The notes under the pieces: model-generated | The model's input: only the letters and a program-made list of their open reading frames with translations | Told to the model about the DNA's origin: nothing | The model's database searches: none | IMG/VR virus record: IMGVR_UViG_3300025085_000055 | Coordinates: 1 to 43,139 of that record | From: a virus | Length of the DNA: 43,139 nucleotides | Direction: 5' to 3' (one strand) | Position numbers and translations under genes: made by a program | Shown: one piece after another, positions 3,104 to 32,225 of the stretch | Layout of the letters: every line of letters starts with the position of its first letter | Position numbering within the stretch: position 1 is the stretch's first letter

Positions 3104-5919
3104 TGGACATTCAACAACAAACTAAAAATGTAGCAGCTCAAGGTCGTTTTGGCGATTCTATGCTTCTTCATGTTAATCCTGCTGAAGTAAAAGGATTAGC
3201 ATCTGCTGTACCTTTAACTATAAATCCAGAAACAGGACAACCTGAAGCTTTCTTACCTTTCTTAGCACCTGTATTAGGCTCTATGCTAGCACCTACAGTT
3301 CTTGGAGCAATAGGTGTTACTGGTTTATCAGCAGGAGCTATGGCAGGTATAGGAGCAGGTTTAGCTACATATGCACAGACAGGTGGTTCTGGTTCTAAAG
3401 CATTACTATCAGGACTTACAGCAGGATTAGGAACAAGAGCATTACAAGGAGTAGCACAAGGAACACAAGCAGGAGTAGATGCAGCAATAGCAACACCACC
3501 AGTAGACCCAAGTTTTGTTGGACCAATGCCTACACCAGTTGCTCCAGTAACTCCTCCAGTTGCTCCACCACTAGATAAAAGTATAACAGCAGGTGAATCT
3601 CTTAAATCAATGTTTACTCAACCTGACTTAGCAGGTCAAATGGGTGGTTTTGATGCAGGTATGAAAAGTTTAGCAGGAGCAGCAATGACTCCTGCTGGAA
3701 TGGCAGCAGGAACAGCAGCAGGTACAGCAGGCGTTATAGCATCACAAGAAGAGTTTGAAAGACAAATGGCTCAACTTACAGAAGATGAAGAAGAACGCAA
3801 AAGAAGAATGTATGAAATGTACCCTGAACAAATACCAATGAAAGAAGGTGGTAGAACTGGTTATTTTATGGGTGGTATGATGGAAGATAAATTTGTACCT
3901 GATGCTCCATATGGTTATGAAAGTGATTATAGTGGATTAAATGGTATAGGTGGTGGTTTTAATGCTTATAGTACACCTCCAAGAAGAAGAACTAGACCAA
4001 TAGGTCGTGGTTTTATGCCAGGTTTTATGCCTGAGTATTCTTATTTTGAAGGCATGAATCCAAGTGCTACAGCTTTAGGTTATGACCCATTAGGTAATTT
4101 TCAAAATCCTCAATCTTATCAAGGAGGATATAGCCAACCTTCTAGAAGAAGAGGTGGCTTTGGTGGTCTTTTGGGTGGTAGTCGTAGAGGCTATAGACCA
4201 CAACCTCAATTACAACCTCCTCAATTTGCAGGATATGGCAATCCATTTATGCAATCACCTAGCTATCAAGGATTCTATGGTGTACCACAAATGCAACAAA
4301 CTTTAAATCCTTATGCAAGATTTACACAACAACCAATGCCTTATCAACCATATCAACCATATGTACCTCCAGTAGAAACACCTCCAGATGATGGTGGTGG
4401 AACTGGTGGTGGTGGAACTGGTGGTGGTGGAACACCTCCTATAGACCCACCAATAGATGATGGGGGTGGTCGTAAAGGAGCTGTTAAAAATCCTGACCCT
4501 ATAGCACCACCAGATGATTTTGTTAATCCTATTATTAATCCACCTGTAGGCGGACCAGTAGAACCTCCTGTATATTATCCTGGAGGAACACCAGGTTTTT
4601 ATGATAGACCAGTACCTAAACCTGTAAAACCTATTATAGAACCTATAAATACACCTCCTCCTACAGTAACAATACCTATTGAAGGTGGAGCAGATGTAAC
4701 AATACCTGACTTTAGTAGACCTCAACCACCTGCACCAGTTATACCACCTGTTATGGCTCCACCTATGAAAAGACCAGAGCCACCTATGTCTATAGATAGA
4801 ATTAGTAATTATGATTTAGATAGAAAATTTGGTGCAGTGCCTATTTCAGAACCAGCACCTACAGATGATATGGCTAGACTCGCTCCTGCACAATTAGCAT
4901 CTATAGGAACTCCATTGTCACAAAGTGCTTTAGACCAACAAGCAGCAATGAGTAGTTTACAAGCTAATAGTATAGATAATTTGTTAAAAGGACCTAAAAT
5001 GTCTAATGATAGCGATAGATTTAATAGGGACCGAATTGCTATAGCAAATCCTATAGCACTACCTCCTATAGCACCTCCTGTTCAATCAGTAACTACACCA
5101 CAGCCTATAGGTCAAGAACCACAACCTCCTCAAACTAGTGGTATACCAGTAACAGGTGGTGGACCATTAGGTAGTGGAATATTACCTGTAGCTAATTTAC
5201 CTTCAGGACCAACAGCTCCTCCAAGTAATACTGGTAGACAAATACCATCAGGACCAGCTATGGGTGGTATAAGTGCAGTACCTACACCAGCAGCACCAGC
5301 TAATCAAAAAGGTAATAATCCTCCTACTATGTCCATTGGTGGACCAGGTGGTGGTAGACGCGGTATCTTTGGAGCACCTATGTTTGCAGCAGGTGGAGAT
5401 ACTGACTTACCTAATGAAGGCTTAGAAGCTTTATCTAAAACAGAAAAAGGTAGAGAAGCTGTAGAAGCAATGGGTTATCAAGAAGGCGGTCAAACAGATA
5501 TGATGCAAGACCCAGTAACACAAGATGTAATTATGTTTATTCTTGGTGAGACTGATAATGAAAATGCAATCAATGCTTTCGTAGAAAAATATGGTGCTGA
5601 GCAGTTTATGTTCTTAAGAGATAAAATCTTAAAACAAGCAGCAGGTAATCCAGATGCACAAACAGAAGGCTTAATACAAGGTAATGGCAATAGCGGAATG
5701 GCTGATGACTTACCAGGTGTTATAGGCAATAAAGAAAAGATAGCTGTATCGCAAGATGAGTTTATAGTTCCAGCAGATGTTGTATCTATGTTAGGAGATG
5801 GTAGTTCAGACGCAGGCTCTAAACAACTATATAATATGATGGATAGAGTTAGACAAGCTAAAACTGGCGGAACAACACAAGCTCCACCACTTAATCCACA
5901 AAAGGTATTACCAGCATGA
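3103..5919 (+). CDS. Large Pro/Gly-rich virion protein
   Basis: A 938-residue low-complexity protein. Residues 40-130 are Ala/Gly-rich and hydrophobic (GAIGVTGLSAGAMAG). A central stretch of about residues 250-790 is dominated by Pro, Gly, Gln and Tyr with a TGGGG repeat near residues 430-445. The C-terminal 150 residues look folded and include SQDEFIVPADVVSMLGDGSS, a segment known from structural proteins of marine phages. It also has a GGRTGYFMGG motif near residue 249 that recurs in the 8071 gene. It overlaps both neighbours by a few bases. A tail or internal virion role is inferred from context; the exact family is not certain. Confidence 0.72.
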   Translation: MDIQQQTKNVAAQGRFGDSMLLHVNPAEVKGLASAVPLTINPETGQPEAFLPFLAPVLGSMLAPTVLGAIGVTGLSAGAMAGIGAGLATYAQTGGSGSKALLSGLTAGLGTRALQGVAQGTQAGVDAAIATPPVDPSFVGPMPTPVAPVTPPVAPPLDKSITAGESLKSMFTQPDLAGQMGGFDAGMKSLAGAAMTPAGMAAGTAAGTAGVIASQEEFERQMAQLTEDEEERKRRMYEMYPEQIPMKEGGRTGYFMGGMMEDKFVPDAPYGYESDYSGLNGIGGGFNAYSTPPRRRTRPIGRGFMPGFMPEYSYFEGMNPSATALGYDPLGNFQNPQSYQGGYSQPSRRRGGFGGLLGGSRRGYRPQPQLQPPQFAGYGNPFMQSPSYQGFYGVPQMQQTLNPYARFTQQPMPYQPYQPYVPPVETPPDDGGGTGGGGTGGGGTPPIDPPIDDGGGRKGAVKNPDPIAPPDDFVNPIINPPVGGPVEPPVYYPGGTPGFYDRPVPKPVKPIIEPINTPPPTVTIPIEGGADVTIPDFSRPQPPAPVIPPVMAPPMKRPEPPMSIDRISNYDLDRKFGAVPISEPAPTDDMARLAPAQLASIGTPLSQSALDQQAAMSSLQANSIDNLLKGPKMSNDSDRFNRDRIAIANPIALPPIAPPVQSVTTPQPIGQEPQPPQTSGIPVTGGGPLGSGILPVANLPSGPTAPPSNTGRQIPSGPAMGGISAVPTPAAPANQKGNNPPTMSIGGPGGGRRGIFGAPMFAAGGDTDLPNEGLEALSKTEKGREAVEAMGYQEGGQTDMMQDPVTQDVIMFILGETDNENAINAFVEKYGAEQFMFLRDKILKQAAGNPDAQTEGLIQGNGNSGMADDLPGVIGNKEKIAVSQDEFIVPADVVSMLGDGSSDAGSKQLYNMMDRVRQAKTGGTTQAPPLNPQKVLPA

Positions 5920-17888: not shown

Positions 17889-17922
17889 CTTACCTCCCAG
17901 ATAACAATAGACCAGTTAATAT

Positions 17923-26852: not shown

Positions 26853-27112
26853 TCTTGCACCTCAATCTCTATAATCTCATCATCTTTTGTAAAGGCTAAA
26901 TGTTTTGGATTAGGAATGTTTAAGTTCTCCCTTTCCTTGTATAAAACATCTTGCACCTTATGATTGATTGAAACCAAAGTATTAAAGTATCTAACAAGTG
27001 CCAAATCAATATCTGATTTTTCATCTAGTTGTCTATTTATCTTTGTATAGATTTCGTTGCAAGTTCCAATGTTCACTTTTAAAGTAAACTCTAGTAGTTC
27101 TCGATTAGTCAT
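26849..27112 (-). CDS. Hypothetical acidic helical protein
   Basis: An 87-residue protein (MTNRELLEFTLKVNIGTCNE ... IIEIEVQE) that overlaps both neighbours. It is mostly helical in its first 60 residues and ends in an acidic strand. It lies in the cluster that also encodes the ADP-ribosyltransferase-like and MoxR/VWA-like proteins but has no hammerhead leader of its own. Function unknown. Confidence 0.65.
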   Translation of the reverse strand: MTNRELLEFTLKVNIGTCNEIYTKINRQLDEKSDIDLALVRYFNTLVSINHKVQDVLYKERENLNIPNPKHLAFTKDDEIIEIEVQE

Positions 27113-27380: not shown

Positions 27381-27439
27381 AAACTGTTTCATGCCTTTTG
27401 GCAATCATCAGTAGAAAATACACATTTTCTATACAGTTT
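27381..27439 (-). ncRNA. Hammerhead ribozyme A (type III)
   Basis: Read on the minus strand: stem III AAACUGU/ACAGUUU (7 bp); cleavage triplet GUA, cut expected between 27432 and 27431; stem I UAGAAAAU-GUGU-AUUUUCUA (8 bp); core CUGAUGA (27411-27405); stem II UGCC-AAAA-GGCA flanked by a U-U mismatch; core GAAA (27390-27387). All invariant core positions of the hammerhead are present in the correct order. It lies in the leader of the gene at 27347. Confidence 0.9.
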
Positions 27440-27589: not shown

Positions 27590-28252
27590 TCAATCTTCTT
27601 TGCGATAGATTATCTCGCTTTCATTTCTATCACTAAGATAAGCAATAGCATCTGATTTATTGATAGTCTTTTCAAAGATATTAGTTTCATGCCTATTTGT
27701 AACATTTGATTCATCACCCATGTTTCCATTCATTACCCACCTGTTAGCAAACCATTCCGCTTTTTCTTTATCCAAAGTCCATGAATAACCCTTATCATCA
27801 ATACCACCTCGATAAATCGTTATGGTATTTGGCAACTCATTAAAGAACTTAGTATCTTCTTCATCCATCATTAAATGTGAATCAGAAAATTCCAAGAACA
27901 AAAGTTGTTCCCATGCTAAATGATTTTCATAGACATTTTCAGTATCAGTCCAAACATTAGCTATCACTTCCCAATATTCTTTTTTGTTTGGCTTCCACCA
28001 ATCCTCCAAAGCATCAAGAATAGATTGAACTCGATAGGCTCGTTCATGCAACCAAAGATAAGAACTGATATCTTTATCCTTGATAGCTTCAGCAACCTTT
28101 TCTTTTTTGAAGTCATAAACTTTATTAGCTTGGCTTATAACCATTTCATGGTTAGACCAAATACCAATAAAATACTTATGATGAATCATTTCAATCCCAC
28201 CCTCGCTAACAGTCGCAATACTGTTAGCAAGTTCATTGTTTAATTTACTCAT
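27590..28252 (-). CDS. Putative ADP-ribosyltransferase
   Basis: A 220-residue protein with the R-S-E pattern of mono-ADP-ribosyltransferases: Arg148 in TIYRGG, the S-x-T of YSWTLDKEKAEWFAN (Ser157, Thr159), and Glu211-Ser-Glu213 in RNESEIIY as the E-x-E motif. Such phage enzymes (for example T4 Alt and ModA) modify host RNA polymerase or other proteins using NAD. The N-terminal 130 residues are helical and may recognise the target. The gene has its own hammerhead and SD hairpin. The assignment is from motif order; the target is unknown. Confidence 0.68.
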   Translation of the reverse strand: MSKLNNELANSIATVSEGGIEMIHHKYFIGIWSNHEMVISQANKVYDFKKEKVAEAIKDKDISSYLWLHERAYRVQSILDALEDWWKPNKKEYWEVIANVWTDTENVYENHLAWEQLLFLEFSDSHLMMDEEDTKFFNELPNTITIYRGGIDDKGYSWTLDKEKAEWFANRWVMNGNMGDESNVTNRHETNIFEKTINKSDAIAYLSDRNESEIIYRKED

Positions 28253-28273: not shown

Positions 28274-28339
28274 TTTTCTGTTTCGCATATCCCTAAATTA
28301 GGATGGCTCATCAGTTTGGTTAATTCCAAATACAGAAAA
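28274..28339 (-). ncRNA. Hammerhead ribozyme B (type III)
   Basis: Minus strand: stem III UUUUCUGU/ACAGAAAA (8 bp); cleavage triplet GUA, cut between 28331 and 28330; stem I UUUGG-AAUUAA-CCAAA; core CUGAUGA (28314-28308); stem II of 23 nt closed by GC/GC with an AUCC/GGAU helix inside; core GAAA (28284-28281). It starts seven bases after a 17-bp hairpin and ends next to the SD hairpin of the gene at 28252. Confidence 0.92.
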
Positions 28340-28345
28340 ACAGAG

Positions 28346-28386
28346 GGTGGAAAAAAATATTTACTGGTCAAATATCTTTTCCCACC
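28346..28386 (-). repeat. Long intercistronic hairpin, loop GACCAGU
   Basis: A 17-bp stem with only Watson-Crick and two G-U pairs (28370-28386 with 28346-28362), loop GACCAGU, starting about 10 bases after the VWA gene stop and just before hammerhead B. No U-run follows, so it is not a standard terminator. Confidence 0.75.
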
Positions 28387-28395
28387 ATTCCATTG

Positions 28396-29748
28396 CTAAA
28401 GATTTTCCATGTTGATATGTACTGTTTCGCCAAATGGATATTTATAATATTCTCGCATATAACTTTCGTTTGTACTTAACGCCCATATAACTGGAACGCT
28501 AGGCTCAACTTCAGCATCAACGCTACAATATCCATCAGTGAAATATACAAAAGCAATAACATCTTCAGTATCTTCAGTTTCATCGTTGAACAAATTAAAG
28601 GGTGGTTCGAACCTAGTTCCTCCTCCACCTCTTAAATTGAACTCCAACTCTTCATTATCCAAATCAAATTCATCCCACCATTCTCCAGTTGTAGGATTCT
28701 TTGCAATTGATGTATCACAATAAGTTACTCTAACTTTATTGATACCGCACTCTTCACATAAGTTTTGAGTTTCAGTAGCAAATATATTGAGTTCTTGTTG
28801 AGATACACTCGCGGAAGTATCTATTGCAACTACAATTTCTCCGCCTTGCGGTTCGTTGTCATTGCTAGGTAAATTGACACCCCTCCAAGAATGTCTTTTA
28901 TTTAGTCTGCTCCACGTTGGATTATTGCTCTTAGCGGAATTTAATAAATCTCGCATTACATCAACCCAATCAACATATGTCTCATTGAGTTTTTGCACCG
29001 CACCATTCATTGTAGAAGTACCACCTTCAGAACATCCCTCTAACTTATCTGCCATCAAGATTGCTCGTTGTATGTTTTCTTTTACTTCCGCCATAGCACT
29101 ATCAGATAATGGATTACCCTCTTCATCAGTTGGCATCCAAACTTCACCCATTGATGGTTTCATATCTGCTAGTTCATCCAATAAGGATTTACCGCTTCCA
29201 TTTCCATCTTGGCTTTCATCTTCGTTGCCATCATCAGAATCAGAGTTACCATCATCATTTTGGGAATCGCCTTCGCCACCTTCAGATTCATCAGAATCTT
29301 CAGACTTAGATTTCATTTCTTCAATGGCATCTTCTAAGGCTTCATCATCATTCATTAAAGTTCTATAGACTGCTTCAGAACTCATGCCTTGATATCTTCT
29401 ATCAAGCAATCCATCTTTAGGCAGTTCCATATTCAAGTCATACTTAATCCATGCATTGATAACATAGTCAGTTGCTACATTCCAAACCTCGTGATTTCGT
29501 TTAGCTTTTCTTAATGGATGCTCCCATATTACATGGCTAGCTTCGTGGACTAATACCGCTTGAATTTCATCATCAGTTAATGTCTTAACAAATTCATCAT
29601 TCCAGTAGATATTGACTCCATCAGTAGCCATCGTTTCACATCTATCGCTAGCTTCAATCAATTCAAGACTAAGAAGCATACTTGCCATTCCTATATTGCC
29701 TTTCATCAATTTCGCTCTAGCTTTTATTATTCTATTTTCACTATTCAT
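28396..29748 (-). CDS. VWA-like / metallopeptidase-like protein (DUF2201 type)
   Basis: A 450-residue protein of two domains. The N-terminal domain has HEASH at residues 68-72 (VLVHEASHVIWEH), a zinc-peptidase-like motif. An acidic linker (about residues 149-186) follows, then a C-terminal von Willebrand A-like domain with the MIDAS core Asp310-x-Ser312-x-Ser314 (AIDTSAS) and a FTDGYC strand. Proteins of this form act with MoxR AAA+ ATPases in metal-insertion or complex-remodelling chaperone pairs. The partner ATPase is encoded two genes upstream. Hammerhead C and an SD hairpin precede it. Confidence 0.85.
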   Translation of the reverse strand: MNSENRIIKARAKLMKGNIGMASMLLSLELIEASDRCETMATDGVNIYWNDEFVKTLTDDEIQAVLVHEASHVIWEHPLRKAKRNHEVWNVATDYVINAWIKYDLNMELPKDGLLDRRYQGMSSEAVYRTLMNDDEALEDAIEEMKSKSEDSDESEGGEGDSQNDDGNSDSDDGNEDESQDGNGSGKSLLDELADMKPSMGEVWMPTDEEGNPLSDSAMAEVKENIQRAILMADKLEGCSEGGTSTMNGAVQKLNETYVDWVDVMRDLLNSAKSNNPTWSRLNKRHSWRGVNLPSNDNEPQGGEIVVAIDTSASVSQQELNIFATETQNLCEECGINKVRVTYCDTSIAKNPTTGEWWDEFDLDNEELEFNLRGGGGTRFEPPFNLFNDETEDTEDVIAFVYFTDGYCSVDAEVEPSVPVIWALSTNESYMREYYKYPFGETVHINMENL

Positions 29749-29765
29749 AATACCTCCAAGTATTA
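29748..29765 (-). promoter_or_regulatory. Shine-Dalgarno hairpin, loop UUGGAG (gene at 29748)
   Basis: Arms UAAUAC/GUAUUA (6 bp) around UUGGAG; the 3' arm reaches the A of the start codon. Confidence 0.7.
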
Positions 29766-29770
29766 ATTTT

Positions 29771-29844
29771 ATTGATACCTAAAAAATATTTAACTGGTAA
29801 ATATTCTCTAGGTTTCTGCTTATCTCAAAGCTTCATCAGTCAAT
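29771..29844 (-). ncRNA. Hammerhead ribozyme C (type I)
   Basis: Minus strand, circularly permuted relative to the others: stem I AUUGA (29844-29840) pairs with UCAAU (29775-29771); core CUGAUGA (29839-29833); stem II GCUU-UGAGAU-AAGC with flanking A-A; core GAAA (29816-29813); stem III is a 16-bp hairpin with loop CCAGU (29813-29777); cleavage triplet GUA, cut between 29776 and 29775. Stem I begins directly after the upstream stop codon. Confidence 0.85.
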
Positions 29845-30836: not shown

Positions 30837-30886
30837 GCTGTTTCATCATTTTTGAATCATCAGTCAGAATTACATTCTGATACAGC
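30837..30886 (-). ncRNA. Hammerhead ribozyme D (type III)
   Basis: Minus strand: stem III GCUGU/ACAGC (5 bp); cleavage triplet GUA, cut between 30881 and 30880; stem I UCAGAAU-GUA-AUUCUGA (7 bp); core CUGAUGA (30863-30857); stem II UCA-AAAA-UGA flanked by a U-U mismatch; core GAAA (30844-30841). It lies between a long hairpin and the SD hairpin of the gene at 30813. Confidence 0.88.
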
Positions 30887-30888
30887 TA

Positions 30889-30936
30889 GCGGAAAAGGAA
30901 TATTTACCAGTCAATAATAAATATTTCCTCTCCCGC
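30889..30936 (-). repeat. Long intercistronic hairpin, loop with ACUGG
   Basis: An 18-bp stem with one bulged A (30918-30936 with 30889-30906), loop UUAUUGACUGG. It starts about 12 bases after the stop of the MoxR-like gene and ends three bases before hammerhead D. Equivalent in place and size to the hairpin before hammerhead B. Confidence 0.7.
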
Positions 30937-32033: not shown

Positions 32034-32091
32034 ATAAGTTTCTTGAACCCCATAATTAGGATTCTCTTCAGTGTGTTAATTCACAGACTAT
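32034..32091 (-). ncRNA. Divergent hammerhead-like element E
   Basis: Minus strand: cleavage triplet GUC (32088-32086); stem I UGUG-AAUUAA-CACA with the same loop as ribozyme B; core CUGAAGA (32071-32065; the fifth position is variable in hammerheads); stem II GAAUCC/GGGUUC (6 bp); core GAAA (32042-32039). Two As are inserted between stem II and GAAA, and stem III (AUAGU with ACUUAU) has a bulge. It may be weakened or decayed. Confidence 0.6.
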
Positions 32092-32225
32092 TGGAGTAGT
32101 CGCAACTGGAAGTTATCGTTTCCGCATCCATGCTTTTGTTTCAGATTATATCGAATCCTTTCAGCACTTCTAATGGTACGTGTTTTGTTTTGAAGCTTCT
32201 CTCTATCTTCGAGGGTAATTCTCAA
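32088..32225 (-). CDS. Small ORF upstream of MoxR-like gene (45 aa)
   Basis: A TTG-initiated frame (TTG at 32225, or at 32234) with GAGGG nearby, encoding ITLEDREKLQNKTRTIRSAE from residue 3 and a basic, helical remainder, with its TAG inside stem III of element E. The composition is protein-like. It overlaps another short frame, 32203-32325, in a different phase, so the two may be one gene joined by a frameshift. Confidence 0.42.
   Translation of the reverse strand: MRITLEDREKLQNKTRTIRSAERIRYNLKQKHGCGNDNFQLRLLQ

Follow-up and report, generated by a model that had tools for sequence, protein, structure and literature searches.

A type I hammerhead between the second and third genes of a phage operon

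We analyzed a stretch of viral DNA of 43,139 nucleotides (IMG/VR virus record IMGVR_UViG_3300025085_000055, positions 1 to 43,139; hereafter the window). Its minus strand carries an operon for a MoxR-like AAA ATPase, a DUF3150-like protein and a DUF2201 metallopeptidase/VWA protein, along with smaller genes. The second and third genes are separated by a 96-nt gap (gap C), which reads stop codon, AUUGA, CUGAUGA, AGCUU-UGAGAU-AAGCA, GAA, ACCUAGAGAAUAUUUACCAGUUAAAUAUUUUUUAGGU, A, UCAAU, leader, Shine-Dalgarno and AUG.

We observed that a type I (CGS) hammerhead occupies positions 29771-29844 of the minus strand, identified by a strict scan and by orthologous type I copies in five related contigs (L033, L003, L035, L005 and L006). 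As the original prediction had it, the ribozyme begins directly after the upstream stop: the TAA of the 322/334-aa DUF3150-like gene lies at 29847-29845, and the 5' strand of stem I, AUUGA, at 29844-29840. The core segment CUGAUGA (29839-29833), stem II (AGCUU-UGAGAU-AAGCA, 29817-29832, with an A-A mismatch at 10.1/11.1), the core GAA (29816-29814), stem III (29777-29813), A17 (29776) and the 3' strand of stem I, UCAAU (29775-29771), follow in this order. Stem III is a 16-bp hairpin with the loop CCAGU; the same hairpin, which we call the ACYRGT hairpin, stands free before the type III copies and is here merged into the ribozyme. Stems I, II and III have 5, 4 (plus the mismatch) and 16 pairs; stem I is open and the other two are closed. 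All the features that had been proposed for this element, including the open AUUGA/UCAAU stem and the long stem III with its loop, are present in the sequence. The predicted cleavage site falls between 29776 and 29775. The Shine-Dalgarno UUGGAGG and the AUG of the downstream DUF2201/VWA gene (28396-29748) lie at 29746-29759.

The hammerhead core (CUGANGA and GAAA, an A15.1-U16.1 pair and H17) is represented in the window by CUGAUGA, GAAA, A15.1-U16.1 and A17. The usual G-C pair at 10.1/11.1, which is present in L003, L035, L005 and L006, is an A-A in the window; the L003 copy has C17 along with its G-C. In the literature this is the most conserved pair after 15.1/16.1, with U-U as the best tolerated mispair. 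The A-A weakens the type I assignment of the window copy but does not exclude it, since natural U-U mismatches are known at this position. Because the position is reported to be highly conserved, the allele of the window may be slower than the sister alleles. In energy folding, the fold with stem I formed (-18.1 kcal/mol) was 2 kcal/mol less stable than the minimum (-20.1 kcal/mol). The support for stem I thus comes from comparison and not from folding energy. This stem is short (5 bp), invariant in three distinct sequences and absent from the minimum-energy fold.

Other hammerheads of the operon and their detection

The whole window was scanned with a strict descriptor for all three hammerhead topologies, and 30 Markov-simulated windows served as the control. 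This yielded three hammerheads, all on the minus strand, against 0.03 per simulated window. Besides the gap-C copy, these were a type III copy at 27381-27439, before the gene ending at 27105 and with U-U at 10.1/11.1, and a type III copy at 30837-30886, before the 322/334-aa gene, with U-U at 10.1/11.1, A17 and covariation in three stems among 20 distinct orthologues. A further type III copy on this strand, with an interrupted stem II, lies at 28275-28338 before the 220-aa gene (27590-28252) and was matched to Hammerhead_3 by Rfam, below the gathering score. The expectation that the remaining copies would be type III was borne out for those at 27.4, 28.3 and 30.85 kb, and within the window there was no second type I copy besides that in gap C. 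Spacer folding placed free ACYRGT hairpins directly before the 30.85 kb copy (30889-30936, minus strand) and before the 28.3 kb copy (28345-28386, minus strand). The separate long hairpins that had been described before copies B and D are thereby real at these two sites, which are presumably B and D if the labels follow coordinate.

Before the MoxR/AAA gene lies a hammerhead-like element (32039-32103, minus strand) whose stem II and GAAA are separated by an inserted AA; its stems I and II covary. The operon thus carries four hammerheads and one hammerhead-like element between 27.4 and 32.1 kb, where at least two same-strand hammerheads flanking genes of one phage operon define a prophage cluster. 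The element at 32039-32103 also contains the hairpin GACTN-CTCCAA-NAGTC. The loop of this hairpin (CUCCAA) complements the Shine-Dalgarno, and its stem changes are compensatory; the element is found in L005, L006, L020 and L021 as well. It may be a different, translation-linked variant.

Rfam at its gathering threshold gave no match anywhere in the window. The best match was the 28.3 kb copy, with 33 bits to Hammerhead_3 (RF00008) against a gathering score of 48.5, and the other type III copies scored lower or were absent; the U-U at 10.1/11.1 probably lowers the score of these two. The layout and core of Hammerhead_3 are nevertheless present in the type III copies despite their sub-gathering scores. 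The gap-C copy of the window was unmatched by RAGATH-1-hammerhead (RF03152) in the Rfam search, while a type I copy in gap D of L035 reached 35.5 bits against a gathering score of 56.3. Whole sets of phage hammerheads therefore fall under standard RNA annotation thresholds.

Type I and type III copies at the orthologous gap of related phages

Four IMG/VR scans yielded about 150 loci, many of which are overlapping stretches of the same contigs. Each gap was compared across 41 related phage contigs, the window being one of them. These belong to an uncultured marine phage group in which nearly all gene junctions of this operon carry a predicted hammerhead. Gap C holds a type I copy in six of the 41 contigs (the window, L033, L003, L035, L005 and L006), all in the window's clade, and a hairpin followed by a type III copy in 32, the nearest outgroup L036 among them. 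The core is broken in one contig (L045), and the gap is absent from two (L063/L064). The comparison of equivalent gaps that had been suggested as a check therefore turned out favourably for the original prediction: outside the window's clade, which has type I, every contig whose gap-C ribozyme is intact has the hairpin with a type III copy. In L045, the copy (about 3410-3500) is a type III whose core A9 is changed to U (CUGACGUG) in an otherwise intact junction, and judging by this change it is probably inactive.

L033 carries the gap-C allele of the window though its genome differs from the window. The upstream gene of L036 shares 82-87% DNA identity with the window's clade. On the tree, which is midpoint-rooted, the type I state forms one group with modest support (89/95 by protein and 65/91 by DNA). 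L003 and L035, both sister genomes, have type I copies in gap D as well. Gap B, before the DUF3150-like gene, carries type III in all contigs compared except L051, whose type I copy (1199-1262) marks a second site of topology exchange.

The VWA gene of more distant phages (44-51% VWA identity) is preceded by no hammerhead; in most of these phages it directly abuts or overlaps the preceding gene, and hammerheads occur at other junctions. The two-gene stretch around gap C had no DNA match among cultured phages. The closest isolates by terminase are HTVC027P, HTVC023P, 023Pt_psg01 and DSL-LC04 (50-59% identity), and the strict scan found no hammerhead in the stretches fetched from these four.

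Conservation of the ribozymes as RNA

Across three distinct gap-C type I sequences, 97.6% of the cells were paired, as compared to 24-41% when the partners were slid. The pair 10.2/11.2 is G-C, A-U or C-G among them and the third pair of stem III is C-G or U-A, both compensatory; such changes preserve the stems in L003 and L006. Compensatory changes were also seen in stems I, II and III of the gap B copies (20 distinct), in stems I and II of the gap C type III copies (13 distinct) and in stems II and III of the gap D type I copies (n=15).

The 10.1/11.1 pair and H17 were found to vary together over all loci and in both topologies. U-U occurs with A17 in 13/13 type I and 46/50 type III copies, G-C with C17 in 26/29 and 14/19, and a bulged U before G-C with C17 in 15/15 and 23/23, respectively. 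Common ancestry may explain part of this association. We also considered the U-U at 10.1/11.1 as a possible novelty and rejected this, as it was already reported in 2011.

Placement of the two topologies relative to stop and start codons

Type I copies start 0 nt after the stop codon in 48 of 75 distinct contexts. For nearly all type III copies the distance from the preceding stop is about 50 nt or more, and 17-37 nt separate their 3' end from the following AUG. A strong hairpin (median z -5.3) forms in each of the 84 distinct spacers between a stop codon and a type III copy; it usually ends 0-7 nt before the ribozyme, and 74 of the spacers have the ACYRGT motif. Folding of the spacers replaced a simple palindrome scan for this hairpin; the scan had missed many, since the loop registers vary. 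The rule is that type I abuts the upstream stop codon, and type III follows a hairpin and sits in the leader of the next gene.

The hairpin-loop motif ACYRGTWAATATT has 10 exact matches in the window and 0 for the pattern read backwards. It also occurs in hammerhead-free gaps of the region, at 17911, 18333, 25407, 26222, 26477, 26554 and 27578 of the window.

Origin of the type I copy and the intermediate in L006

The stem II loop UGARAY is present in 46 of 54 distinct type I modules of the phage group, while 54 of 75 distinct type III modules have an AAAA/GAAA tetraloop at stem II. The gap-C modules of the window, L003 and L006 had type I modules as all of their top matches. Three features tie the gap-C copies to the type I lineage and set them apart from the type III copies: the stem II loop UGAGAU, the sequence of stem II and, in L006, the GAAACUUUAAAC tail.

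Type I copies in this group have one of two forms of stem III, a plain hairpin or a three-way domain. The latter has a UA bulge and an arm capped by a GNRA loop; in this arm 4/7 pairs covary. The gap-C copy of L006 has the three-way domain, beginning ACUUUAAAC as in other copies, except that the long ACCAGU hairpin takes the place of the final one. Neither L003 nor the window retains the GNRA arm, and in both the core leads directly into the long hairpin. L006 is also the clade member nearest to L036 in the adjacent gene (87% against 82-84%). The search for intermediates that accompanied the original prediction was therefore answered by one contig, L006. A stretch of its stem III, GCGAUGUGU, was considered as a remnant of a type III stem I and rejected; it is the GNRA-capped arm of the type I three-way domain.

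The three-way stem III defines a subfamily of type I that includes L057 4036-4119, L065 1563-1646, L016 4654-4738, L125 4152-4237 and about 20 others. The layout is UUAAA, a helix with the UA bulge and GNRA-capped arm, then a second hairpin. Loci with this domain had no Rfam match up to E = 1, and the domain could serve in docking or sensing.

The stem II loop and flanks place the gap-C copy in a separate type I lineage, for which reason we favor replacement over permutation of the resident copy. Most likely, a copy from this lineage, which is similar to RAGATH-1 hammerheads, took over the gap through recombination and then merged with the hairpin already there. The suggestion of recombination or conversion between topologies within one operon held in part: the orthologous gap does hold both types, with L006 as the intermediate, but the type I copy is probably not a permuted form of the resident type III, its stem II, loop and GAAACUUUAAAC tail being those of the type I lineage.

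Four distant contigs (L116, L117, L119 and L140) have type I copies with the ACYRGT motif inside stem III, which suggests that mergers of hairpin and ribozyme may have happened more than once. Small genes have been inserted ahead of the AAA gene in L005 (1050-1430) and L024 (2300-2760). They bring a type I hammerhead of their own at the stop codon, which looks as though gene and ribozyme move as one cassette.

Alternative explanations

The window copy might be a decaying relic in which the A-A at 10.1/11.1 and A17 are inactivating and only the hairpin matters, as an upstream 3' end or a pause/terminator. A mispair in place of the sisters' G-C would be expected to hurt, and the minimum-energy fold lacks stem I. 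However, all other core bases, stem I and the pairs 10.2-10.5 are intact, with a compensatory G-C at 10.2; the same allele recurs in L033, in a genome differing from the window; and 59 distinct copies of the phage group pair U-U at 10.1/11.1 with A17 and are conserved. We regard decay as unlikely, though it deserves more weight than the other alternatives. That the ACYRGT hairpins are DNA operators, promoters or transcription terminators, merged with the ribozyme incidentally, appears improbable. Their near-palindromic centre is conserved in either orientation and occurs also in gaps without a hammerhead, but complementarity reaches beyond this centre, the hairpin usually keeps 0-7 nt from the ribozyme, and the stem lacks the trailing U-run of an intrinsic terminator, its Ts being inside the 3' arm. 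Chance resemblance to a hammerhead has nothing beyond the simplicity of the motif to recommend it and can practically be dismissed. The simulations gave 0.03 matches per window against three strict matches and a fourth by Rfam, and the orthologues are conserved and covary, which refutes chance for the family.

The direction and route of the change have rivals as well. Type I could be ancestral in gap C and type III gained elsewhere; the tree, rooted only at its midpoint, permits this, and in some type III relatives the gap opens with TAAGCCAA, much as type I copies in gap D do. But type III is present in every other subclade having a gap-C ribozyme, most of the more distant phages are without any gap, and type I is limited to closely related contigs, so we hold this order to be quite doubtful. 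Slightly more doubtful still is the origin of type I by circular permutation of the resident type III, for example through tandem duplication and loss of the outer halves. The gap, the hairpin and the general core are indeed the same, but the stem II loop, the stem II sequence and the GAAACUUUAAAC tail fit the type I lineage, stem III of L006 is the type I three-way domain, and no contig has both types in gap C.

Proposed role in processing of the operon transcript

Our preferred reading, to which we assign a probability of roughly 0.74, is that the gap-C type I hammerhead would cut the polycistronic transcript between the DUF3150-like and DUF2201/VWA genes, having replaced a hairpin and type III ribozyme and merged with the hairpin. 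The anatomy, conservation, covariation, orthology of the gap, type I lineage of the module and the intermediate are read from sequence. A cut after A29776 would leave an upstream mRNA that ends in the folded ribozyme, with the 16-bp hairpin of stem III a single nucleotide away from the newly made 3' end, and a downstream mRNA with a short 5'-OH leader containing the ribosome-binding site. At type III junctions the arrangement would be mirrored to the same effect, the free hairpin ending the upstream mRNA and the ribozyme staying in the downstream leader. The layouts dictate that a type I ribozyme is retained by the 5' product and a type III ribozyme by the 3' product; both would therefore end the upstream mRNA in a hairpin and start the downstream mRNA with a 5'-OH leader. 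The use of the hairpin as stem III is then a natural economy and not an oddity.

The two types would thus be modules that can stand in for one another. The ancestral hairpin and type III unit would have been replaced, in the window's clade, by a type I copy of the separate lineage; the resident hairpin would have become an arm of the type I stem III, the state in L006; and a deletion of about 30 nt would have fused hairpin and core, the state in the window and L003. Cleavage, protection of 3' ends by the hairpin and the order of these evolutionary steps are what we infer. We lean modestly to the broader view that topology is an exchangeable trait at a fixed site, with type I on upstream stops and type III on downstream leaders, and that the merger made an mRNA 3'-end hairpin into a catalytic arm. 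The locus offers an example in which one topology took over a site from another, with the change mapped to a tree and an intermediate still found in nature. The operon also makes the old transcript-cutting proposal testable, since each junction predicts exact ends, the 3' end on the side of the hairpin and the 5' end on that of the ribosome-binding site.

Comparison with known hammerhead systems

The nearest known family is RAGATH-1-hammerhead (RF03152), which shares the type I layout, the open 5-bp stem I, CUGAUGA, a short stem II, GAAAC, the closed stem III hairpin and GUC. Unlike in that family, stem III here is a long hairpin common to neighbouring junctions, and 10.1/11.1 is A-A. Different block orders of one ribozyme in nature are also known from the non-circularly permuted hammerheads SGC and CSG (PMC10085705), whereas the only block orders involved in the phages described here, CGS (type I) and SCG (type III), are both classical circular permutations.

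Prophages with mixed clusters of hammerheads were known before. Type I, II and III copies flanking genes of a phage operon, with types shown per site, were described by Perreault et al. 2011 (PMC3088659), where phage hammerheads were proposed to cut long transcripts into single-gene or operon-length mRNAs and other prophage clusters cleaved in vitro and in E. coli. These clusters resemble ours in having several hammerheads that flank genes in a phage operon and in the U10.1-U11.1 mismatch, which that report records in prophage hammerheads. HHphage of the haloviruses HF1/HF2 is likewise a hammerhead in a polycistronic unit, 13 nt before a phage gene start, and its mapped 5' end lies at most 3 nt from the cleavage site; it differs in core insertions near C3 and in its high-salt habitat of origin (PMC3088659). 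Exchange of type at an orthologous site, a rule linking type I to stop codons, and a hairpin before type III or merged into stem III are all absent from the text of that report available to us.

The processing proposal dates from 2011, and hammerheads near each other flanking small ORFs have been covered in a review. What is new is therefore that topology has been exchanged at a single site, together with the intermediate and the rule of placement.
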